Source of the DNA: Halorubrum rubrum
GTDB lineage: Archaea; Halobacteriota; Halobacteria; Halobacteriales; Haloferacaceae
DNA length: 64,000 bases
NCBI RefSeq assembly: GCF_024494685.1
Contig: NZ_JANHDM010000009.1
Location: 62,001-126,000 of the forward strand
Reading direction: 5' to 3'
Part shown: positions 127 to 22,718 of the stretch, in pieces
Layout: each line of letters begins with the position of its first letter
Position numbering within the stretch: position 1 is the stretch's first letter
Notes under the pieces: generated by a model
The model's database searches: none
What the model was told of the DNA's origin: nothing
Seen by the model: the letters and a program-made list of their open reading frames with translations, nothing else
Translations under genes and position numbers: made by a program

Positions 127-1092
127 TCACTCGCCCGGTCGTTCGAAGACGTCGTCGAGACGGTCCGCCGCGAGCCCGACGATCGTCCGGATCCGCGTCT
201 TCTGGAGGTTCAGGTCGCTGTAGTAGCACCCGAGATCCTGAAGCGTCCGCTCGCTTCCGCGGAAGCCGTAGGTGTCCCGCGCGAGTCGACCCTCAGGACA
301 CCGCGTGGTCGCGACGATCGGGACGCCGTTTTCGGCGACGGACTCCAACTCGGGGATGATCGTCGGGGGGATGTGCCCGGCACCCGTCGCCGCGAGACAG
401 AGCGCGTCGCTCTCGCGGGCGGGGGCGAGCTGTGCCGGCGGCACGTCCGCGGTCACGAAGGCGGCGTGTACGTCGTTCGTGAGATCGTCGTACTCGACGG
501 CGAGGTCCGGATCGGGCGACGCGGGCGTCCGCCGCCACGTGACGCGCGACTCGTCGATGACTCCGAGCGGGCCGAACTCCGGCGACCGAAACGTGTCGAG
601 GTTCATCGAGTTCGTCTTCGTCACTTCTCGAGCCGCGTGGATCCGGTCGTTGAACGCGACGAGCACGCGTCCGGACGCGCGGTCGCTCGTCGCCGTCCTC
701 ACGCTCGCGAGGAGGTTGGCGGGGCCGTCCGGGCTCGGTAGCGATGGGTTTCGCATCGCCCCCGTGAAGACGACCGGCGTCTCGCCGTCGTAACAGAGGT
801 CGACGAAGTACGCCGACTCCTCGAGCACGTCCGTCCCCTGCGTGACGACGATCCCCTCGACGTCTCCGTCCCCGTCGAGTTCCGCGAGGAACCGCGCGAG
901 GTCTCCCATCTGCTCGACCGTGAAGTGCGCGCTCGGAACGTTGGAGAACTCCCGCGTGTCGACGTCCGCGACGTCGGCCAGTTCGGGAACGGCGGAGACG
1001 AGGTCCTCGCCGGTGAGCTCCGGGCTCGCGTCCCCGCCGGAGTCCGGCGTCGAGGCGATCGTGCCGCCGGTAGAGACGACGGTTACCGTCAT
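127..1092 (-). CDS. L-asparaginase, type I/II fold
   Basis: Predicted to hydrolyse L-asparagine to aspartate and ammonia. The 321-residue product has the N-terminal nucleophile motif STGGTIAS (residues 7-14), the second-threonine block TQGTDVLEE (84-92), and the VTKTN block that carries the catalytic lysine in the family. I chose the start at 1092 rather than the longer frame from 1119 because the shorter form begins directly with the beta-strand MTVTVVSTGG and has a GGAGGGG ribosome site just upstream. The gene is divergent from the DoeA-like gene, with 142 bp between them holding the shared promoter element. Asparaginase would feed the same aspartate pool as ectoine breakdown, but a role in that pathway is inference. 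Family call is firm. Confidence 0.92.
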   Translation of the reverse strand: MTVTVVSTGGTIASTPDSGGDASPELTGEDLVSAVPELADVADVDTREFSNVPSAHFTVEQMGDLARFLAELDGDGDVEGIVVTQGTDVLEESAYFVDLCYDGETPVVFTGAMRNPSLPSPDGPANLLASVRTATSDRASGRVLVAFNDRIHAAREVTKTNSMNLDTFRSPEFGPLGVIDESRVTWRRTPASPDPDLAVEYDDLTNDVHAAFVTADVPPAQLAPARESDALCLAATGAGHIPPTIIPELESVAENGVPIVATTRCPEGRLARDTYGFRGSERTLQDLGCYYSDLNLQKTRIRTIVGLAADRLDDVFERPGE

Positions 1093-1166
1093 GCCCCCTC
1101 CTGTCCGGCGAACTCGCATAAGCGTTCTCCCCTCTACGGGGGCGTCCGTCGCAGATCGGTAAACGG

Positions 1167-1234: not shown

Positions 1235-2413
1235 ATGCCACACGATGTCTTTCCCCGATCGGAGTACGAATCGCGGGTCGACCGCACCAAGGAGCGCCTC
1301 CGCGAGCGCGATCTCGACGCCATCGTCGTCTCGGATCCGGCGAACATGAACTACCTCGCGGGCTACGACGGCTGGTCCTTCTACGTCCACCAGGCCGTCG
1401 TCGTCACGCGCGAGTATCCCGAGCCGGTGTGGGTCGGCCGCGACATGGACCGGAACGGCGCGCGCGCCACGACGTGGCTCGCCGAGGAGAACATGCGCGC
1501 GTACAGCGACGACCACGTCCACTCCCCGTACGACCTCCACCCGATGGACTACCTCGCGGACGTGCTCGAGGACCTGGGGGTCGACGCCGGCCGCATCGGC
1601 GTGGAGATGGACGCCTCCTACTTCACGGCGAAGTCGTACACTCGGCTCCAGTCGCAGCTGCCGAACGCGGAGTTCGTCGACGCCGACCTCCTCGTCAACT
1701 GGCTCCGGATACGCAAGTCCGACCGCGAGATCGCGTACATGGAGGAGGCCGCCCGCATCTCCGAGGAGGCGATGCTCGCGGGGCTCGACGCCATCGAGGC
1801 GGGCGTCCCGGAGTACGAGGCCGCCGCCGCGATCTACGACCGGCTGGTCCGCGGCACCGACGAGTACGGCGGCGACTACCCCGCGATCGTCCCGCTCATG
1901 CCCTCGGGCGACCACACGGGGACGCCCCACCTCACCTGGACCGACCGAGAGTTCGAGGAGGGCGACCCCGTCCTCATCGAGCTGTCGGGGTGTCGCCACC
2001 GCTACCACTCGCCGCTCGCGCGGACGACGTTCGTCGGCGACCCGCCGGACGCCATTCGGGAGACCGCCGACGTCGTCGTCGAGGGGATCGAGGCCGCGCT
2101 CGACGTCGTCGAGCCCGGCGTCACCTGCGAACGCGTCGAGCGCGAGTGGCGCGAGACGATAGCGCGGTACGGCGTCGAAAAGGAGGACCGGATCGGCTAC
2201 TCGATGGGGCTCGGCTACCCGCCGGACTGGGGCGAACACACCGCCAGCATCCGCCCCGGCGACGAGACCGTCATGGAGGAGGGGATGACCTTCCACATGA
2301 TCCCCGGACTGTGGGAGGACGAGTTCGGCGTCGAACTCAGCGAGACGTTCCGGGTCACCGCGACGGGCGCGGAGACGCTCGCGGACTTCCCTCGCCGGCT
2401 GTTCACGGCGTGA
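1235..2413 (+). CDS. doeA: Ectoine hydrolase-like protein, M24/creatinase fold
   Basis: Likely opens the ectoine ring to N-alpha-acetyl-L-2,4-diaminobutyrate, the first step of ectoine degradation. The 392-residue protein has the family's two domains: an N-terminal creatinase-like half with the diagnostic stretch NMNYLAGYDGWSFYVHQ (37-53) and GRDMDRNGARATTWL (68-82), and a C-terminal pita-bread half. The C-terminal half keeps GGDYPAIVPLMPSG and GYSMGLGYPPDWGEH, but where metallopeptidases carry the first metal aspartates it reads IELSGCRHRYHSPLART (248-264). That is typical of the metal-poor ectoine hydrolase/creatinase branch rather than Xaa-Pro dipeptidases. Its own promoter with the shared element lies upstream. 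The alternative is another M24 amidinohydrolase; context with a DABA-type aminotransferase and a BCCT carrier favours ectoine. Confidence 0.82.
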   Translation: MPHDVFPRSEYESRVDRTKERLRERDLDAIVVSDPANMNYLAGYDGWSFYVHQAVVVTREYPEPVWVGRDMDRNGARATTWLAEENMRAYSDDHVHSPYDLHPMDYLADVLEDLGVDAGRIGVEMDASYFTAKSYTRLQSQLPNAEFVDADLLVNWLRIRKSDREIAYMEEAARISEEAMLAGLDAIEAGVPEYEAAAAIYDRLVRGTDEYGGDYPAIVPLMPSGDHTGTPHLTWTDREFEEGDPVLIELSGCRHRYHSPLARTTFVGDPPDAIRETADVVVEGIEAALDVVEPGVTCERVEREWRETIARYGVEKEDRIGYSMGLGYPPDWGEHTASIRPGDETVMEEGMTFHMIPGLWEDEFGVELSETFRVTATGAETLADFPRRLFTA

Positions 2414-2443
2414 GACCGGCAGGGATCGACCGCGTCGCGCAGC

Positions 2444-2977
2444 TCACTCCTTGACGGTCGCGTAGGTTCGAGCGTACGAGCCCACGAGCGGCACCGAGTA
2501 CTCCTCGCCGCTGTACGCCTTGTACAGCAGGAACGCCCACGCGAGGAACGCGACCGGCGTGAGGAGCAGACTCCCGAGTCCCAGCGCCGCGGCCGCGATC
2601 CAGCCGACGCCGGGTACGAACGATATCACGGTGAGGACGACCGAGAGCACGATCGAGGCGACGAACAGGCCGCCGAAGACCAGCGTGCTCTGAACGGCGT
2701 GGAACCGGACGAAGGCGTCCTCGGGCTCCAAGACGTAGAACAGCACGCCCGTGATCGGCCCCAGCAGGTAGCTGAGCGCGCCCGCGACGTTGGGTTCGAG
2801 CCCGGTACCCGTCGCCGTGTCGGCGGTCGGCGCGGTCGTCCCCGACTCGGTCGCCTCCGTCATCCCCGGCTCGGTCGCCTCCGAGTCCATCGATTTCTCT
2901 CTCGTGAGCGCGTCGTCAGTCGACTCCTCGACGACGGCGTCGACGGCGTCTCCGGCGGTTGACCGATCCGTTACCAT
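2444..2977 (-). CDS. DUF4870-type membrane protein
   Basis: The predicted 177-residue protein has an acidic, Ser/Thr-rich N-terminal tail of about 70 residues, then three hydrophobic segments. The signature LSYLLGPITGVLFYVLEPEDAFVRFHAVQS matches the DUF4870/Tic20-like family of small integral membrane proteins of unknown function. The start at 2977 is preferred over 3001 because a TATA-like TTTAATA lies near 3011-3018, which places the transcript start around 2990. The gene sits inside the ectoine block but on the opposite strand from its DoeA neighbour, and nothing ties it to the pathway. Confidence 0.75.
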   Translation of the reverse strand: MVTDRSTAGDAVDAVVEESTDDALTREKSMDSEATEPGMTEATESGTTAPTADTATGTGLEPNVAGALSYLLGPITGVLFYVLEPEDAFVRFHAVQSTLVFGGLFVASIVLSVVLTVISFVPGVGWIAAAALGLGSLLLTPVAFLAWAFLLYKAYSGEEYSVPLVGSYARTYATVKE

Positions 2978-3062
2978 TGATGATACACCACGTACACCCA
3001 CGCTCGCTGAGGTATTAAAGACGGACGACGGTCGGCGGATCGCCCTCGGGGACCGAAACCGC

Positions 3063-4046
3063 TCAGTTGCCGTCGTCGGGCGCGGCGACGAGGTTCCGGA
3101 GGTCGGCGGGGTCGCCGCCGGCGTCGATCGCGGCGACGTTGTCCGCGACGATGTCGGCGAGCCGGTCCCAGTGTTTCGGGGTATGGCCGCCAGTGTGGGG
3201 CGTGATCAGGCAGTTCTCGAGGTCCCACAGCGGGTGGTCCGCGGGCAGCGGCTCGGGGTCGGTCACGTCGAGGGCGGCCCCGCGGAGCCCGCTGGAGCGG
3301 AGCGCGGAGACGAGGGCGTCGGTGTCGACGATCCCCCCGCGGGCGGCGTTGACGACGACCGCGTGCGGCGGCAGCGTCGCCAGCTCCGGCTCGCCGATCA
3401 GCCCGCGCGTGAGGTCGTTGAGCGGGCACGCGACGACGACGTAGTCGCTGCGTGCGAGCGCGTCGTGGATCGCGTCCGCCTCGAAGCCGACCACCTCGTC
3501 GGTCGGTCCGCCCTTCGAGGGGGTGTAGCGGACCCCGATCGTCTCCACGTCGAACCCCTCGAGGCGCTCGACGACGTGCCGGCCGATGGAGCCGAGCCCG
3601 ATCACGGTGACGGTGCTGCCCGTGAACTCGAACGACTGGAAGTGTCGCCACTCCGCGTTCGACTTGCGTCGCCACCCCTCGTGGAGCCGACGAGCGAACA
3701 CGAGCATGTTGGCGATCGACTGCTCCGCGATCCCCGGCGCGTGGATCCCGCCGGCGTTGGTGACGGCCACGCCGCGCTCCGTGAGCGCCTCGACGGGGAC
3801 GTGGTCGGTGCCGGCGAAGGTACACGCGAACAGCTCCAGGCGGTCCGCGTCGGCGATCTGCGCCTCGTCGACCGTGATCCCGGTGACGACCCGCGCCCGC
3901 GGGACGAGTTCCCGCTCCTCCGCGGGCGTCCGCGCCAGCGCGACCTCGCGGTCGGGCAGGCGCTCGCGGAGCGTCTCGGCGTACGATCCCATCGACAGTC
4001 CCTCGGTCCCCTCGCGGAGGACGACGACGTCTGGCTGGTCGCTCAT
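3063..4046 (-). CDS. D-2-hydroxyacid dehydrogenase (NAD-dependent)
   Basis: An NAD(P)-dependent oxidoreductase of the D-isomer 2-hydroxyacid family, interconverting 2-oxo acids and D-2-hydroxy acids; the real substrate is unknown. The 327-residue protein shows the Rossmann loop VIGLGSIGRHV (about 163-173), the substrate arginine in NAARGGIVDTDAL, the conserved DVTDPEPLP, and the catalytic histidine in TPHTGGHT. Length is normal for the family. It is divergent from the deacetylase gene at 4171, and the 124-bp gap holds the shared element and palindrome. Its role in ectoine breakdown is not established; it may reduce or oxidise a keto-acid formed by transamination. Confidence 0.85.
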   Translation of the reverse strand: MSDQPDVVVLREGTEGLSMGSYAETLRERLPDREVALARTPAEERELVPRARVVTGITVDEAQIADADRLELFACTFAGTDHVPVEALTERGVAVTNAGGIHAPGIAEQSIANMLVFARRLHEGWRRKSNAEWRHFQSFEFTGSTVTVIGLGSIGRHVVERLEGFDVETIGVRYTPSKGGPTDEVVGFEADAIHDALARSDYVVVACPLNDLTRGLIGEPELATLPPHAVVVNAARGGIVDTDALVSALRSSGLRGAALDVTDPEPLPADHPLWDLENCLITPHTGGHTPKHWDRLADIVADNVAAIDAGGDPADLRNLVAAPDDGN

Positions 4047-4106
4047 TGGTGGATTCGCCGCGCGATGGCGGTGACGTCCGGGAGTTCGCCGGACCGGTAC
4101 TTACCT

Positions 4107-4146
4107 TTTTTGTAGTCTTCATACACGATCATCGTGTACGTTTAAG
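4107..4146 (+). promoter_or_regulatory. Shared element with perfect palindrome and TATA box
   Basis: The pyrimidine run and GTAGTCTTCATACACG (to 4127) overlap a perfect inverted repeat TACACGATCATCGTGTA (4122-4138: two 8-bp arms around one base). The TATA box TTTAAG (4141-4146) follows immediately and is 28 nt before the ATG at 4171, so that transcript should be leaderless. Sitting on the BRE position, the palindrome is well placed for either an activator or a repressor. The same region serves the divergent dehydrogenase gene. Confidence 0.7.
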
Positions 4147-4170
4147 TACATCCGAGCGTCACGGACTCAC

Positions 4171-5631
4171 ATGACACGACCCGTGGCGGAGCGGCTCGTC
4201 GAGACGCGCCGAGGACTTCACGAACACCCCGAGCCCGGCTGGCGCGAGTTCTACACCACGAGCCGACTGGTCGAGGAGATAGAGCGGATCGGCGTCGACG
4301 AGCTCGCGGTCGGGCGGGAGGCGTACGACCCCGCCGACCGGATGGGCGTCCTCGAGGACGACGCCTACGAGGAGTGGGTCGACCGCGCCCGCGACCTCGG
4401 CGCGCGCGAGGACGTGCTCGAACGGACCGAGGGGGGCGTCACCGGCTGCGTGGCCGTCCTCGAGCGCGGCGAGGGGCCGACCGTCGGGTTGCGAGTCGAC
4501 ATCGACGGCCTGTTCATCGAGGAGTCGGCGGACGACGAGCACGCCCCCGCCCGCGAGGGGTTCCGGTCGGACACGGACGGCGTGATGCACGCTTGCGGCC
4601 ACGACGCGCACATGACCATGGGGCTCGCGACGCTCGAGGCGGTGAAAGAGAGCGACTTCTCCGGGCGGCTCGTGGTCTTCTTCCAGCCCGCCGAGGAGCT
4701 CGGCGGCGGCGGCCACCCGATGGCGGAGAGCCGGTTCATCGAGGGGATCGACTACCTGTTCGCGGTCCACGTCGGCCTCGGCCACCCCACCGGCCGGGTC
4801 GTCGCCGGCATCGAGCGGGCGCTCGCGATCGCACACGTCGAGGCCGTCTTCCACGGGACCTCGGCGCACGCGGGCAAGTCCCCCGAGGAGGGCGACAACG
4901 CGATGCAGGCGCTCGGCACCGCCATCTCGAACGCGTACGGGATCCCCAGACACAGCGAGGGGATGACCCGCGTGAACGTGGGGTACGCGGAGGCCGGGAG
5001 CGCGAGCAACGTGATCGCCGACCGCGCGCGCGTCGAGGCGGAGGCCCGCGGCGAGACGACGGCGCTCAAAGAGTACGGGAAGTCGCGGCTGAAGCGGGCG
5101 TTCCGCGGCGCCGCCGAGTCGCACGGCTGCGAGCTCGAGTTCGAGGTTACGACCGAGTGTCCGCGGGCGGACAGCGACCCGGAGCTCGCGGACCACGTCG
5201 CGTCCGTCGCCGAGGGCGTCGAGGGCGTGACCGAGGTGCTGCCGATCGCGGACTTCGGCGCGAGCGAGGACGCGACGTACCTGATGGACCGCGTCCAGGG
5301 GAACGGCGGGCTCGCGACGTACATGATCGTCGGGACCGACCACCCCACCGGCCACCACTCCCCGACGTTCGACGTCGACGAGGAGAGCCTGCCGATCGGC
5401 GTCGGGGTGCTGACGGAGGCGATCCTCGGCGTCGGCGACGGCGACGTCGCGGCCGACAGTGACGTCACGGCGACCGACGGCGACGTCGCGGCCGACAGTG
5501 ACGTCACGGCGACCGACGGCGACGTCGCGGCCGACAGTGACGTCACGGCGACCGACGGCGACGTTTCGGCCGGCGGCGGCGACGCCCCGGCGACGGACGG
5601 CGGTTCGACGGGTTCCGGCGCCGATCGATGA
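4171..5631 (+). CDS. M20-family amidohydrolase, probable N-acetyl-diaminobutyrate deacetylase
   Basis: A zinc-dependent deacetylase/aminoacylase of the M20D group (AbgA/AbgB-like), proposed to remove the acetyl group from N-acetyl-L-2,4-diaminobutyrate. Seen: RRGLHEHPEPGWREF (13-27), the metal block HACGHDAHM (140-148, C142, H144, H147), the glutamate pair in FQPAEE (171-176), and metal H200. The dimerisation domain with HGTSAHAG follows, then a late histidine in GHHSPTFDVDEE. Bacterial DoeB is an M14-type enzyme, so an M20 enzyme here would be an alternative solution; the assignment rests on context. The last ~50 residues are an acidic tail built from a 13-residue repeat, outside the catalytic fold. 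Substrate is uncertain; the family is certain. Confidence 0.8.
   Translation: MTRPVAERLVETRRGLHEHPEPGWREFYTTSRLVEEIERIGVDELAVGREAYDPADRMGVLEDDAYEEWVDRARDLGAREDVLERTEGGVTGCVAVLERGEGPTVGLRVDIDGLFIEESADDEHAPAREGFRSDTDGVMHACGHDAHMTMGLATLEAVKESDFSGRLVVFFQPAEELGGGGHPMAESRFIEGIDYLFAVHVGLGHPTGRVVAGIERALAIAHVEAVFHGTSAHAGKSPEEGDNAMQALGTAISNAYGIPRHSEGMTRVNVGYAEAGSASNVIADRARVEAEARGETTALKEYGKSRLKRAFRGAAESHGCELEFEVTTECPRADSDPELADHVASVAEGVEGVTEVLPIADFGASEDATYLMDRVQGNGGLATYMIVGTDHPTGHHSPTFDVDEESLPIGVGVLTEAILGVGDGDVAADSDVTATDGDVAADSDVTATDGDVAADSDVTATDGDVSAGGGDAPATDGGSTGSGADR
5437..5564 (+). repeat. 39-bp minisatellite inside the deacetylase gene
   Basis: Three exact 39-bp tandem units (5437-5475, 5476-5514, 5515-5553) plus an 11-bp partial unit encode the peptide DGDVAADSDVTAT three times in frame. 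The repeat lies in the C-terminal tail after the conserved M20 domain. Exact identity at the DNA level means recent expansion by slippage or unequal crossing-over. Confidence 0.95.
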
Positions 5632-5702
5632 CGGCCTCGGCGAGGTCGGCGTCGCTCGACGGGTAGTCGCCTCCCCGACGGGTTCGAACGGTGTCCGGCG
5701 AC

Positions 5703-7064
5703 TCAGGCAGTCGTCGGCGTCGGTCCCGCGGCCGCGACCGCCTCGAGGAAGATCGAGACACCCAAGTCGATCTCGCGTTCCGTCGAGTCGAGCGGGGGGA
5801 GAAGCCGGATCGTCTTCTTGCCGCAGCCGAGCGTGAGCAGGCCGCGCTCCAACGCCTCCGCGACCACGTCGTCGCGGCGCTCCGGCGTGTCGAACTCGAC
5901 GGCGAGCATGAGTCCCTTCCCGCGCACGTCGACGACGTGGTCGCCCGCGTCGTCCGCGAGCAGCTCCTTCGCCTGCCGGCCGCGCGTCCGCGCGTTCGCG
6001 AGCAGGTCGTGCTCCTCGATCGCCTCGATCGTGAGCGCGCCCATCATCGACCCGAGGAGGTCGCCGCCGCCGAACGTGGAGCCGAGCCGGTTCTTCTCGT
6101 CGGGGAACAGCTCGGAGCGGCCGACCGTCGCGCCGACGCGGAGCGCCTTCGCCGCGCCGATCACGTCGGGCTCGACGTCGTAGTGCTCCGACGCCCAGAA
6201 CCTCCCGGTGCGGCCGACGCCCGACTGGATCTCGTCGACGATCAGGGGGATGTCGTACTCGTCGGTCACCGCGCCGACCTCCGCCATGAACGACTCGCTC
6301 GGGAAGCGGTAGCCGCCGACGCCCTGGATCGGTTCGAGGACCACGAACGCGACCTCCGCGGGGTCGATGTGGCCACCCTCCGGCGCGAGCGCGTTCCGCA
6401 GCTGGGAGCCGCCGCCGGCGAAGAAGCCGCAGTCGCACGTCTCGGGGGAACACTCCCGGTCCGCACAGAACGGCACCGTCTCGATCCCGGCGACCTCCGG
6501 GTAGTGGCGGGTGTAGACGTCCTTGGTGTTGGTGAGAGAGAGCGTCCCGAGAGTGCGGCCGTGGAAGCTCCCGCCGAACGCGACGCCGTACTTCGCGGCC
6601 GGCTTGTGGTCGTGGGCGACCTTCATCGCGTTCTCGATCGCCTCCGCCCCGGAGTTCGAGAGGAAGACGGTGTCGAGCCCGAACGTCGCGGAGACCTCCG
6701 TGAGCCCCTCCATCAGCCGTGCCGATCCGGGGAACGGCGCGGCGTCCGGGTCGGGTCCGGAGCCGAAGTACATGTCCTGGCCCGCGATCTTCATCGGCTC
6801 GACGAGGTCGAACTCCCGGAGCGTGCCGAGCACCTTCTCGTTGTTGTAGCCGAACGGCGCAGCCCCGATGTGACACGTGAAATCCATGAGGACGTTGCCG
6901 TCCACGTCGGTGACGAAGGGACCGTCCGCTTCGCGGGTGACGTCCCAGACGAACTCGTGAGAGTACTCGCTCGGCGCGGCGTTTTCGCCGTAGCGTTCGA
7001 CCCACTTCTCGGCGTTCGGCCCCGGCAGCCCGCCGGTGTCCGGCTCCGCAGTGTCCCTGTCCAT
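5703..7064 (-). CDS. Class III aminotransferase, probable diaminobutyrate transaminase
   Basis: PLP-dependent aminotransferase; in this context it would convert L-2,4-diaminobutyrate to aspartate semialdehyde (DoeD role). The 453-residue protein has the PLP-phosphate block SNSGAEAIENAMK (136-148), FHGRT (167-171), the cofactor aspartate in IVDEIQSGVGRTGRF (275-289, D277) and the Schiff-base lysine in GAAKALRVG (303-311, K306). A four-cysteine insertion (C200, C205, C210, C212) resembles that of archaeal GABA-type aminotransferases. I took the start at 7064 because TATA TTTTAA near 7091-7096 is about 29 nt upstream, giving a leaderless mRNA; the longer frame to 7109 would cross the operator. 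GABA or ornithine-type substrates remain possible. Confidence 0.82.
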   Translation of the reverse strand: MDRDTAEPDTGGLPGPNAEKWVERYGENAAPSEYSHEFVWDVTREADGPFVTDVDGNVLMDFTCHIGAAPFGYNNEKVLGTLREFDLVEPMKIAGQDMYFGSGPDPDAAPFPGSARLMEGLTEVSATFGLDTVFLSNSGAEAIENAMKVAHDHKPAAKYGVAFGGSFHGRTLGTLSLTNTKDVYTRHYPEVAGIETVPFCADRECSPETCDCGFFAGGGSQLRNALAPEGGHIDPAEVAFVVLEPIQGVGGYRFPSESFMAEVGAVTDEYDIPLIVDEIQSGVGRTGRFWASEHYDVEPDVIGAAKALRVGATVGRSELFPDEKNRLGSTFGGGDLLGSMMGALTIEAIEEHDLLANARTRGRQAKELLADDAGDHVVDVRGKGLMLAVEFDTPERRDDVVAEALERGLLTLGCGKKTIRLLPPLDSTEREIDLGVSIFLEAVAAAGPTPTTA

Positions 7065-7097
7065 ACACAGTAAGTGTGTACAACGTCCATTAAAACC
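7064..7097 (-). promoter_or_regulatory. Operator palindrome over the start of the aminotransferase gene
   Basis: On the minus strand, TATA TTTTAA (7091-7096) is followed by a perfect inverted repeat TACACA-N5-TGTGTA (7064-7080) whose last bases touch the start codon. With a leaderless transcript the palindrome covers the transcription start. It is the same 17-bp architecture as the sites at 4122-4138 and 9077-9093. Here the position suggests repression by steric block. Confidence 0.65.
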
Positions 7098-7214
7098 TTC
7101 TCCCGACACGCGAGCGGGCGGGAACGGGGGCGCGAGCGGACCGAGCGGAGAACGTGAGCCGGAACCGGATCCGGCAGGCCGGGCCGGCGTCGATCGATTC
7201 GGTCGTCAGTCGCG

Positions 7215-8924
7215 TCAGTCGTCGTCGGACTCGACGGCGGATCCGGCCCGCGATTCGGCCTGTGACCCGGAGCCGCCCTCGGATCCGTACAGCACGGTCT
7301 CGTTCTGGAAGAGCACCTGGTCGTAGTTCTCGCCGAAGTCCTTGATCAGCGCCAGCATCGCGAGGAGGCAGACGAAGGCGAACGGCGTGCCGGTGATGAT
7401 CGCCGCCTGCTGGAGCGTCTCCGCGCTGTCGCTGCCGCCGAGGATCATCAATATCGCCGCGGTCATCCCAAGGACGACGCCCCAGAAGATCCGGTTGATG
7501 TTCGACGGCTCCGCCTTTCCCCCGGTCGTCATCATCGAGACGGCGAGCGTCGAGGAGTCCGCCGACGTGACGAAGAAGGTCGTCACGAGGACCATGAACG
7601 CGTAGATCAGCACGGATCCGATCGGGATCGTCATCGACGCCCCGCCGAGGTTCAACGTGAAGTTCAGCGCCTCGAAGAGGATGAATCCGGACACCTCGGG
7701 GCCGGCCTCGCCGGCTATCACCGCGCCGAAGTCGGCGATGCCGTTGTGCTGTGCCCAGACCGCGGTGCCGCCGACGAACGTGAACCACGGGATGGTCGCA
7801 CCGGAGGTCGCGACGATCCCCGTGAACGCGACCTCGCGGACGGTCCGTCCCTTGGAGATCCGCGCGATGAACAGCCCCGCGAAGGGCGACCACGAGAGCG
7901 CCCACGCCCAGTAGAACACCGTCCACGCGTTGATCCATCCGGTCGCACCGGTATCGCCCGCACCCAGTGGCCCCGCACCGGTGAAGAGGCTCATCGAGAC
8001 GAAATCGGAGATCATCCCGCCGAACGCCTGGGTGCCGAGAAGCAGGAGGAACAGCGTCGGGCCCACGACGAACGTCACGAACATGAGCACGACGAAGAGG
8101 ATCATGTTGAAATTCGAAAGTCGGCGGATCCCCTTGTCGACCCCGAGCACCATCGAGGTCGTGAAAAGCAGAGTCATCGTGGTGACGACGAGCAGGATGC
8201 CGAGATCGCCCATGTTGATCCCCCACTGGTAGTCGAGGCCGGTGACGAACTGGCTCCCGATGAAGCCGAGCGACGTGGCGACGCCGCCGATCGTCGCGAA
8301 GACGGCGAGGACGTCGACGACCTTCGCGAGCGGGCCGTCGAGGTTGTCGGCACCGAGGATCGGCGTGAGCGCGGAGGAGACGCGCAGCGGGACGTTCTCG
8401 TAGTTGTACGCGAAGTAACCGATCGCGATGCCCATGATGGTGAACACCGCGAGCTGCGGCAGCGCCCAGTGGAACAGCGTCTGCTGGACGGCGATCGTCA
8501 TCGCCTCGGCCGTTCCGCCCTCGACGTTACTGAAGAGCGGCGAGGGGTTGCTGTAGTAGAACAGCGCCTCGGTCGGCCCCCAGAACACGACACCGGCCGC
8601 GAAGCCCGCCGAGTACAGCATCGCGAAAAACGAGAGGAAACTGTACTCCGGGGGTTCGTCGCCGAGCTTGATACCGCCCCACGGCCCCACGATCAGGAAG
8701 AGGAGGAACAAGACGATCAGGAACACGATCAACATCAGCGCCCAGTTGAACGCGCCGAGAAGCTGGTCGTTCAGCGACGAGATGCCGTTCTCGACGGTCG
8801 ACGGACTGATGAAGAACGCGACGATCACGCCCAGAGTTATCAGCGCGCCGAACGCGAAGACGACCGGGTCGATCTCCTCGAGGAACGCCGTGACCGGGCT
8901 CTCTGACTCCTCCGCGTCGCTCAC
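7215..8924 (-). CDS. BCCT-family compatible-solute transporter
   Basis: Secondary carrier of the betaine/carnitine/choline/ectoine family in the cytoplasmic membrane, most likely importing ectoine or glycine betaine with sodium. The 569-residue protein has 12 hydrophobic segments and the hallmark block of segment 8, WALSWSPFAGLFIARISKGRTVREV. Segment 3 reads YSAGFAAGVVFWGPTEALFYY, lacking the GMGIG glycine motif of BetP. Both termini are acidic and Ser-rich. The start is GTG at 8924, backed by a ribosome site GGGGGTGATCC; TATA-like CATTTATG near 9045-9052 lies upstream with the shared palindrome just beyond. Carrier substrate is inferred from the neighbouring catabolic genes. Confidence 0.88.
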   Translation of the reverse strand: MSDAEESESPVTAFLEEIDPVVFAFGALITLGVIVAFFISPSTVENGISSLNDQLLGAFNWALMLIVFLIVLFLLFLIVGPWGGIKLGDEPPEYSFLSFFAMLYSAGFAAGVVFWGPTEALFYYSNPSPLFSNVEGGTAEAMTIAVQQTLFHWALPQLAVFTIMGIAIGYFAYNYENVPLRVSSALTPILGADNLDGPLAKVVDVLAVFATIGGVATSLGFIGSQFVTGLDYQWGINMGDLGILLVVTTMTLLFTTSMVLGVDKGIRRLSNFNMILFVVLMFVTFVVGPTLFLLLLGTQAFGGMISDFVSMSLFTGAGPLGAGDTGATGWINAWTVFYWAWALSWSPFAGLFIARISKGRTVREVAFTGIVATSGATIPWFTFVGGTAVWAQHNGIADFGAVIAGEAGPEVSGFILFEALNFTLNLGGASMTIPIGSVLIYAFMVLVTTFFVTSADSSTLAVSMMTTGGKAEPSNINRIFWGVVLGMTAAILMILGGSDSAETLQQAAIITGTPFAFVCLLAMLALIKDFGENYDQVLFQNETVLYGSEGGSGSQAESRAGSAVESDDD

Positions 8925-9061
8925 ACGGGATCACCCCCATCGGGCCGTCTCGAACTCGGGCGCTCGCGACGGTCGTCGTCCGATCCCCCCCGCCGGCCGA
9001 CTGTCGTGATACGTGATAGCACAGTCCGCTTGTCGAATCGTCCTCACATAAATGTTGTCTT

Positions 9062-9093
9062 TTTTCGTATTCGTAGTACACGGTTGTTGTGTA
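9062..9093 (+). promoter_or_regulatory. Shared element and palindrome between BCCT and deacetylase-fold genes
   Basis: The 21-bp element ends at 9082 (CGTATTCGTAGTACACG) and overlaps the palindrome TACACG-GTTGT-TGTGTA (9077-9093), which extends by one G/C pair on each side. It lies in the divergent region between the BCCT gene and the gene at 9313, just upstream of the BCCT TATA box as read on the minus strand. Confidence 0.65.
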
Positions 9094-9312
9094 CACTTCG
9101 TGCCAACGGGGAGGAACCGACGCTCGATGGCGGGAACTCCCGATCACCGCTCGGACGCCGTGATCTTTTCACAGCTCCCACGAAAGCGAACCCGTGCGAC
9201 ACACGACACACGCGTCGTCCGAAGGGACGACCGCCGGAACGAGGCCGAACCGAACGGGGGCGAGCGCGCCCGAACCGAACCCGTCCGACCGCTCGCGTGA
9301 GGGGACGGGACG

Positions 9313-10488
9313 ATGACTGTCGAACGAACGACGAACGGCGGAGGCGACGCCGAGATGGCCGTCTTCTGGCACGAGCGCATGCTGGACCACGAGCAGCCGG
9401 CGGGGGCGTTCAAACACCCGTCGACGCCGATCGTTGCCGCCGACGAGACGCACCCGGACCGTCGCGAGCGCGTCGAGAACATCGTGGCGACGGTGGAACA
9501 CGGCTTCCCCGAGGAGAGTCGCTTCGTCGAGCCCGAACGGGCGAGCAGGGAGGCGATCGAGCGCGTCCACGACGCCGAGTACGTGGACTGGCTCGAGGCG
9601 TTCTGCGCCGACGGCGGCGGCCGGATCGGTCGGACGACCACCGGGGCGAACGAGGCGACGTACGACGCGGCGCGGGTCGCCGCGGGGGCCGCGGTCGCCG
9701 CCGCCGACCACGCGCTGTCGGACCGACCGGGAGTCCCGTACGCGCTCTGCCGCCCGAGCGGTCACCACGCCCAGCCGACCCAGGCGGACGGGTTCTGCTT
9801 CCTCAACAACGCGGCCGTCGCCGCCGCCGACGCGCTCGCGACCGACGGGGTCGACCGGGTCGCGATCGTCGACTGGGACGTCCACCACGGCAACGGGACC
9901 CAGGAGGTCTTCTACGACCGCGACGACGTCCTCCTCGTGAGCGCTCACCACGACCACGGCTCGTGGTCCGAGTACCACCCGCAGGAGGGGTCGCTTTCGG
10001 AGGACGGCGAGGGCGACGGAAGGGGGTACACGGTGAACGTTCCGCTCCCGCCCGGCACGGGCGACCGCGGGTACGAGCGCCTGTTCGAGGACGTCGTCGA
10101 GCCGATCGTCCGGTCGTACGACCCCGACCTCGTCCTCGTGAGCGCCGGGCAGGACGCGGGCACGGTCGACCCCAACGGCCGAAACCTCGTCACCCGCGGC
10201 GGGTTCCGGACGCTTGGCTCGCGGGTCCGCGCGCTCGCCGACGACGTCGCTGACGGCCGCCTGGCGCTGATCCAGGAGGGCGGCTACCAGCCGTCGCACC
10301 TCTCGTTCGCCACCCTCGGCGTCCTCGAGGGCGTCCTCGATCGGCTCGTCGACCTGGAGGGGTACGGTCACGACGACCCGATGGCGTGGCTCGACGAGCC
10401 GACGGCACTCGTCGACGAGTGGCTCGACGAGGCGATCGACCACCACCGAACGCACTGGCCGGTCCTGGCGGAACCCGTCGAGCGGTAA
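9313..10488 (+). CDS. Histone-deacetylase-fold amidohydrolase (acetylpolyamine/acetoin-utilisation type)
   Basis: Zinc amidohydrolase of the class II HDAC superfamily, removing acetyl groups from amines. In 391 residues it has the catalytic pair RPSGHHAQPTQADGFCFLNNAA (HH at 151-152), the zinc-binding VDWDVHHGNGTQ (186-197; D189, H191), a third zinc aspartate in VSAGQDAGTVDP (usual family form SAGFDA), and the late tyrosine in EGGYQP. It starts 388 bp after the BCCT start, with the shared element in between. It could be the true deacetylase for N-acetyl-diaminobutyrate, or act on acetylated polyamines. A second in-frame ATG at 9355 is possible, since the family fold starts there. Confidence 0.87.
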   Translation: MTVERTTNGGGDAEMAVFWHERMLDHEQPAGAFKHPSTPIVAADETHPDRRERVENIVATVEHGFPEESRFVEPERASREAIERVHDAEYVDWLEAFCADGGGRIGRTTTGANEATYDAARVAAGAAVAAADHALSDRPGVPYALCRPSGHHAQPTQADGFCFLNNAAVAAADALATDGVDRVAIVDWDVHHGNGTQEVFYDRDDVLLVSAHHDHGSWSEYHPQEGSLSEDGEGDGRGYTVNVPLPPGTGDRGYERLFEDVVEPIVRSYDPDLVLVSAGQDAGTVDPNGRNLVTRGGFRTLGSRVRALADDVADGRLALIQEGGYQPSHLSFATLGVLEGVLDRLVDLEGYGHDDPMAWLDEPTALVDEWLDEAIDHHRTHWPVLAEPVER

Positions 10489-22560: not shown

Positions 22561-22718
22561 GCGAACTAGTATCAACGTTTTCTGGATATAACTACCGGCG
22601 GCGCCGATGCGGCGATCCGCGTCCGTCCGCGGCCGAGTCCTCGATCGACCACCGTAACCGTTTTGTATCGATGCGACACCGGTCCGCCTGTCATCGGATC
22701 CCGTGGACGACGTCGCCA

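Follow-up and report, generated by a model that had tools for sequence, protein, structure and literature searches.

The window analysed here, a 64,000-nucleotide stretch of Halorubrum DNA (G000:C25:62001-126000, on one of the 25 contigs of a 3.23-Mb genome), carries a gene cluster that is likely one half of a co-regulated regulon for the uptake and catabolism of ectoine, and probably of hydroxyectoine too. The gene set is split in this genome, as a diaminobutyrate (DABA)-transaminase-like gene, a second M20 gene (M20b), c9 and an aldehyde:ferredoxin oxidoreductase (AOR) gene lie together at G000:C19:195878-201283. The initial annotation had described an archaeal ectoine uptake and degradation cluster lacking both ectoine synthesis genes and the M14-type deacetylase DoeB. 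This view is upheld by the identity and active site of the DoeA-like hydrolase, by gene co-occurrence and by the signs of co-regulation, but an HDAC-fold deacetylase and an asparaginase that it had counted in are here removed from the system. The genes that it named are all real and lie where it had placed them; as it had noted, no ect genes occur in the window, and the genome as a whole lacks ectoine synthase (PF06339). The core genes, identified at the family level, and the operator-like repeats that they share are as follows:

1235-2413, plus strand: DoeA-like ectoine hydrolase with a creatinase/M24 fold and a non-metal active site (TIGR02993, PDB 6twk, residue conservation)
3063-4046, minus strand: D-2-hydroxyacid dehydrogenase (HADH), a core member (co-occurrence, catalytic motifs, operator between HADH and M20)
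4122-4138: operator TACACGATCATCGTGTA in the divergent HADH/M20 promoter (pattern search, 51 of 56 genomes)
4171-5631, plus strand: M20 amidohydrolase (AbgA-like, M20a clade), candidate N-acetyl-DABA deacetylase (TIGR01891, PDB 3io1, clade, co-occurrence)
5703-7064, minus strand: class III aminotransferase, for which a 2-substituted 4-aminobutyrate is proposed as substrate (orthologue in 40/40 DoeA-positive and 0/40 DoeA-negative genomes)
7064-7080: operator TACACAGTAAGTGTGTA (plus strand), overlapping the aminotransferase start (same offset from the ATG in the other genomes listed)
7215-8924, minus strand: BCCT transporter in which the betaine aromatic cage is largely lost (BetP-numbered residues)
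9077-9093: operator TACACGGTTGTTGTGTA upstream of the BCCT gene, and also 220 bp upstream of the HDAC-fold gene (pattern search)

From these identities we infer the reactions and substrates in vivo, the specificity of transport and the mode of regulation. The BCCT carrier would import the solute and the DoeA-like enzyme would open the ectoine ring to give N-acetyl-DABA, which the M20 enzyme, alone or together with its C19 paralogue M20b, would deacetylate in place of an M14 DoeB. The amino groups would be removed by two class III aminotransferases, the one in the window and the DABA-transaminase-like one on C19, and the resulting aldehyde would be oxidized by AOR (C19) or, in other species, by an enzyme of the succinate-semialdehyde dehydrogenase (SSADH) type. 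HADH would reduce a 2-oxo intermediate; many relatives encode a threonine-dehydratase-like enzyme, and some of them RidA as well, that may make this intermediate from hydroxyectoine. The repeat TACAC-N7-GTGTA would be bound by a repressor or activator, perhaps of the IclR type.

The DoeA-like hydrolase

By sequence, the window protein is a close relative of the bacterial ectoine hydrolase DoeA. It matches TIGR02993 with 469 bits (E 1e-140) and the solved DoeA structure (PDB 6twk) at E 6e-114, compared with 3e-31 for the best prolidase. The M24 metal ligands D, D, H and E are replaced by E249, P260, Y322 and I356. When a metal-dependent prolidase is aligned with the 62 archaeal copies, E, P, Y and I occupy four of the five ligand columns in every copy; the placement of the fifth is uncertain by one residue. 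The Glu, Pro and Tyr are identical to E255, P266 and Y329 of DoeA, the first of which we take to be its catalytic residue, while the Ile sits where DoeA has M363. With these four metal-ligand positions replaced, the protein is unlikely to act purely as a dipeptidase. Conservation extends well beyond them, with 112 DoeA residues common to at least 95% of the 62 archaeal copies; the DoeA-specific residues that are kept include those in GYDGWSFYVHQ, GGDYPAIVP and PHLTW, together with E255, Y329, W339, E341 and H361.

Two haloarchaea harbour second DoeA-type paralogues that are ∼55% identical (L088/L165 in G247:C33, and L089 in G061:C12). The G061 copy is located beside an IclR-type gene with an operator-like site, and an HDAC-fold gene lies 2.6 kb away.

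Distribution and co-occurrence

DoeA orthologues are present in 103 of the 292 sampled Halobacteria genomes, representing 33 of 77 genera. The fetched loci display a conserved order of DoeA, HADH, M20, often a threonine-dehydratase-like gene (c4), aminotransferase and BCCT, the last often followed by c9, M20b, RidA and the DABA-transaminase-like gene; some loci also include AOR or SSADH. The whole set is carried on a single plasmid in Halopiger xanaduensis, and Halomarina sp. BND7 has a compact version that includes IclR and RidA. In genus g3, DoeA lies ∼600 kb from the rest of the cluster, with both halves retained.

The initial annotation had named co-occurrence in other haloarchaea as the test of its reading, and the outcome was strongly positive when 40 DoeA-positive genomes were compared with 40 DoeA-negative ones, these being hand-chosen from the class sample and not phylogenetically independent. 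Fisher tests were used, with score thresholds fixed after the hits were seen. An M20a orthologue (>540 bits) was found in 39/40 DoeA-positive and 0/40 DoeA-negative genomes; in one positive genome, G039, the cluster M20 scores at paralogue level only. Orthologues of both the window aminotransferase and the DABA-transaminase-like enzyme occur in 40/40 versus 0/40, two of the DoeA-negative genomes containing 58-61% paralogues of the latter, and the threonine-dehydratase-like gene in 28/40 versus 0/40. HADH, previously regarded as a bystander, belongs to the core, being present in all 40 DoeA-positive genomes versus three of the 40 negative ones. The contrast within Halorubrum provides the cleaner figure: M20a, the window aminotransferase and the DABA-transaminase-like gene were each found in 9/9 DoeA-positive and 0/8 DoeA-negative genomes. 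In one congener (L122, G009:C1, 9195-10576) a frameshift or sequencing error divides the DABA-transaminase-like gene between two overlapping frames, although the other cluster genes are intact.

A shared operator-like repeat

The promoter elements that the initial annotation considered to be partly shared can be sharpened to TACAC-N7-GTGTA at 4122-4138, 7064-7080 and 9077-9093. The pattern occurs at four places in the genome, three of which are at cluster promoters (0.00 expected in the window), although it was first noticed in the same intergenic regions and searched for afterwards, and the binomial figure therefore overstates the case. It is conserved in the HADH/M20 intergenic regions of 51/56 genomes. 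Independent support for a role as an operator is provided by the cluster genes that did not contribute to the model. A matrix built solely from the HADH/M20 regions was used to scan 200 bp upstream of each gene, with the threshold set at the 99th percentile of the scores of 1050 other such regions. This value was exceeded by 85% of the upstream regions of the aminotransferase, 53% of those of BCCT, 33% of those of DoeA and 21% of those of the DABA transaminase, compared with 1% for other genes, and some of the high scorers among the latter are divergent from cluster genes or are IclR regulators. In the window the aminotransferase operator sits between a TATA-like TTTTAAT and the ATG at 7064, which argues for a leaderless start at this ATG and not at the GTG at 7109.

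An IclR protein was considered as the regulator, as such genes are adjacent in several genomes, in some of them with a copy of the operator upstream. The assignment was not adopted, given the size of the family; no DoeA-specific IclR orthologue was identified in Halorubrum. A further site fitting the operator model, with a score of 13.8, is located at 22570-22590 of the window, far from the cluster. The operator offers a simple route to predicting the regulon and finding its regulator.

The deacetylation step

The M20 protein matches TIGR01891 with 260 bits, and its nearest solved relative is AbgA (PDB 3io1, E 8e-86). It scores far under the cut-off of the DoeB2 family (NF038260, 116 bits versus 550), and membership of that family is not claimed. 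Phylogenetically, M20a forms one DoeA-linked clade (support 97/98), apart from M20b and general haloarchaeal M20 enzymes, with the G039 cluster M20 the one that falls outside. The view that the deacetylase is not of the bacterial DoeB (M14) type is supported. None of the 80 genomes contains an M14-type DoeB over the TIGR02994 cut-off (best score 114 bits versus 402.7), but the M20 route is also predicted, on the evidence of gene neighbourhoods, in bacteria outside the Proteobacteria and has a named family, DoeB2. Among 70 bacterial DoeA loci, which are of uneven length, derive from the best 80 hits and indicate a trend and not a census, an M20 gene is nearby in 44, M14 DoeB in five and both in none. 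Because 44 of the 70 carry an M20 gene nearby, the M20 solution is common outside Proteobacteria and not exotic. The acidic C-terminal tail of the window M20, DGDVAADSDVTAT, is encoded by an in-frame 39-bp tandem repeat (5436-5572, 3.5 copies, 97% matches) and is shorter or absent in congeners.

Three further genes adjoin or interrupt the core:

127-1119, minus strand: asparaginase, a neighbour in five Halorubrum genomes only, judged a non-member
2444-3001, minus strand: predicted membrane protein without a Pfam or NCBIfam match (four Halorubrum loci only)
9313-10488, plus strand: HDAC-fold amidohydrolase, a neighbour in six Halorubrum genomes, judged non-core (synteny, operator scan)

The HDAC-fold enzyme had been proposed as a second deacetylase of the pathway, and it is conceivable that it acts on N-acetyl-DABA alongside M20, perhaps on the gamma isomer, which Halomonas DoeA also makes (PMC5924519). 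Its orthologues are commoner in DoeA-positive genomes (16/40 versus 1/40), and the gene adjoins the cluster in six Halorubrum genomes, is at most 2.6 kb from the second DoeA copy in G061 and stands beside the DABA transaminase gene in G098. However, it is absent or unlinked in most DoeA-positive genomes, and 0/14 of its upstream regions exceeded the 99th percentile in the 200-bp scan; in the window the BCCT site, at 220 bp from the start of the HDAC gene, is just beyond the reach of that scan. Elsewhere, moreover, its neighbours are amidases and ABC transporters of polyamine or branched-chain type, as would be expected of acetylpolyamine-type enzymes. On synteny, the operator scan and these contexts the enzyme is rejected as a core step, and its service as an alternative deacetylase is improbable. 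At L101 (G047:C2) and L097/L152 (G017, G061), contexts that were judged from gene lengths, gene order and N-terminal sequences only, HDAC-fold orthologues stand beside Pot-like or branched-chain-like ABC transporter genes, amidases and aminotransferases, which suggests uptake and deacetylation of acylated amines. The asparaginase, also previously included, is excluded by its adjacency in only five relatives and by the lack of a strong operator in any of its five upstream regions in the same scan.

Aminotransferases, aldehyde oxidation and transport

The window aminotransferase, at first taken to be of the DABA type, passes no DABA transaminase cut-off; PRK05769 is its first match at 299 bits, with PRK09264 at only 151. 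A better candidate is the DABA-transaminase-like orthologue at G000:C19:195878-197308, which is under the TIGR00709 cut-off (328 bits versus 401.6; PRK06938 399 bits). DAT-like and the nearer of the two aminotransferases, it is probably the DABA transaminase. The AOR on C19 is a candidate for the DoeC role. Near the cluster, AOR and SSADH are mutually exclusive (19 and 7 genomes, none with both). A model in which they are strict alternatives was rejected: family membership confounds its p value of 0.03, and an SSADH-like gene is present on C10 of the window genome.

With respect to transport, the aromatic cage of BetP comprises W189, W194, Y197 and W374. In the window BCCT the first of these positions remains Trp, while the other three are replaced by Leu, Phe and Ala, respectively, residues found at the same positions in 39/45, 44/45 and 40/45 cluster BCCTs. 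The replacement of these cage residues makes betaine unlikely as the main substrate, and the protein scores below the glycine betaine family cut-off (NF047988, 396 versus 650). Ectoine is the putative substrate.

A possible 2-hydroxyacid branch

Conserved blocks of HADH contain GxGxxG and the Arg/Glu/His catalytic motifs, and the textbook route to aspartate leaves the constancy of the enzyme in these clusters unexplained. Relatives pair the dehydrogenase with the dehydratase and sometimes RidA, and many genomes also encode a YdiJ-like FAD/FeS enzyme. In the bacterium Lentibacillus persicus DoeA occurs with a D-2-hydroxyacid dehydrogenase, a gamma-aminobutyrate (GABA) transaminase, SSADH, RidA, M20 and an EutB-like gene, the GABA transaminase and SSADH both exceeding a curated cut-off. 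On the basis of these pairings and the Lentibacillus gene set, a route through 4-amino-2-hydroxybutanoate to malate is proposed. (Hydroxy-)DABA would shed its 2-amino group to yield 4-amino-2-oxobutanoate, in hydroxyectoine users via the dehydratase and RidA, and HADH would convert this product to 4-amino-2-hydroxybutanoate. The GABA-transaminase-like enzyme of the window would then generate malate semialdehyde, which AOR or SSADH would oxidize to D-malate; in many relatives a YdiJ-like D-2-hydroxyacid oxidoreductase may produce oxaloacetate from it. That the archaeal pathway ends in this way, and not at aspartate, is a tentative proposal, possible rather than probable. The dehydratase-like gene of the relatives, c4, was rejected as a true EutB: its product is under the EutB cut-off (TIGR02991, 247 bits versus 413), scores higher as a threonine ammonia-lyase (388, over the TIGR01127 cut-off of 379) and is 34-42% identical to EutB.

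Weighing the ectoine assignment

Several observations weigh against an ectoine regulon as set out above. The DoeA-like protein, with its 469 bits, misses the TIGR02993 equivalog cut-off of 613; a DoeA-like protein from Priestia does likewise (531 bits), and the cut-off may be tuned to Proteobacteria, but the window protein is filed as DoeA-like and not as a certified equivalog. Operator scores in the window genome are weak for DoeA (6.0) and the DABA transaminase (10.2), both below the 99th percentile. The dehydratase and RidA are missing from both loci of this genome, where the first step of the hydroxyacid branch would therefore need another enzyme. Finally, identity to the bacterial D-2-hydroxyacid dehydrogenase is no more than 24-27%.

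The cluster might instead serve another cyclic amidine or an N-acyl diamino compound, with a creatinase-like hydrolase built on the DoeA scaffold. The sub-threshold DoeA score is compatible with such a substrate, as are the proximity of M20 to AbgA, an N-acyl-amino-acid hydrolase, and the loss of the betaine cage, which fits several non-betaine solutes. Against this, the DoeA-specific residues are kept, the DABA-transaminase-like gene tracks DoeA in 40 genomes to none, and the bacterial counterparts adjoin EutB/EutC genes, so that another solute has only a small likelihood. That the cluster degrades peptides through an ordinary M24 dipeptidase, M20 and the aminotransferases, as the public annotation (M24 family metallopeptidase; amidohydrolase for M20) might imply, is highly improbable, as the loss of the metal ligands in a pattern much like that of DoeA (E, P, Y, M) argues against such an identity and the similarity to prolidases is weak.

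Comparison with known systems

To our knowledge, ectoine catabolism has been experimentally shown only in a few Proteobacteria. An earlier survey limited ectoine consumers to that group (PMC5924519). Putative, provisional ectoine clusters in Halobacteria were reported in April 2026: more than 100 EutD hits came from Archaea, where they lie in conserved clusters alongside genes for an aminopeptidase, an aminotransferase and a BCCT carrier, and Bacillota clusters were described that carry abgB without eutE (PMC13188858). The core idea of haloarchaeal ectoine clusters is thus already published, having been first proposed in that paper. Its main-text passages do not mention the archaeal D-2-hydroxyacid dehydrogenase, dehydratase, RidA, AOR, second locus, genome-wide co-occurrence or operator. 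New in this work are the active-site test, the genome-wide co-occurrence, the fuller composition and split layout of the system, the operator, the exclusion of the HDAC-fold enzyme and asparaginase, and the proposal of a hydroxyacid branch. If the ectoine assignment is correct, haloarchaea living in salt lakes and brines (one in three of the sampled species) could eat the main osmolyte released by halophilic bacteria, using a different deacetylase and importer and probably a different carbon route from bacteria. The conserved dehydrogenase makes the handling of the hydroxyl of hydroxyectoine testable.

The Halorubrum set resembles the proteobacterial doe/eut systems (doeABDC of Halomonas elongata and eutABCDE of Ruegeria pomeroyi) in that a DoeA-type hydrolase would act first, followed by a deacetylase, a class III aminotransferase and aldehyde oxidation, with a clustered importer. 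As in systems with DoeB2 (NF038260), an M20 amidohydrolase is proposed for deacetylation, although the window enzyme is nearer AbgA (PDB 3io1). In contrast to doe/eut, the Halorubrum set lacks an M14 DoeB, and no EutA, EutC or EnuR was recognized in the cluster. It employs a BCCT carrier in place of TRAP or ABC importers, has a different operator, and adds a D-2-hydroxyacid dehydrogenase and a second aminotransferase, with AOR as the candidate for aldehyde oxidation.

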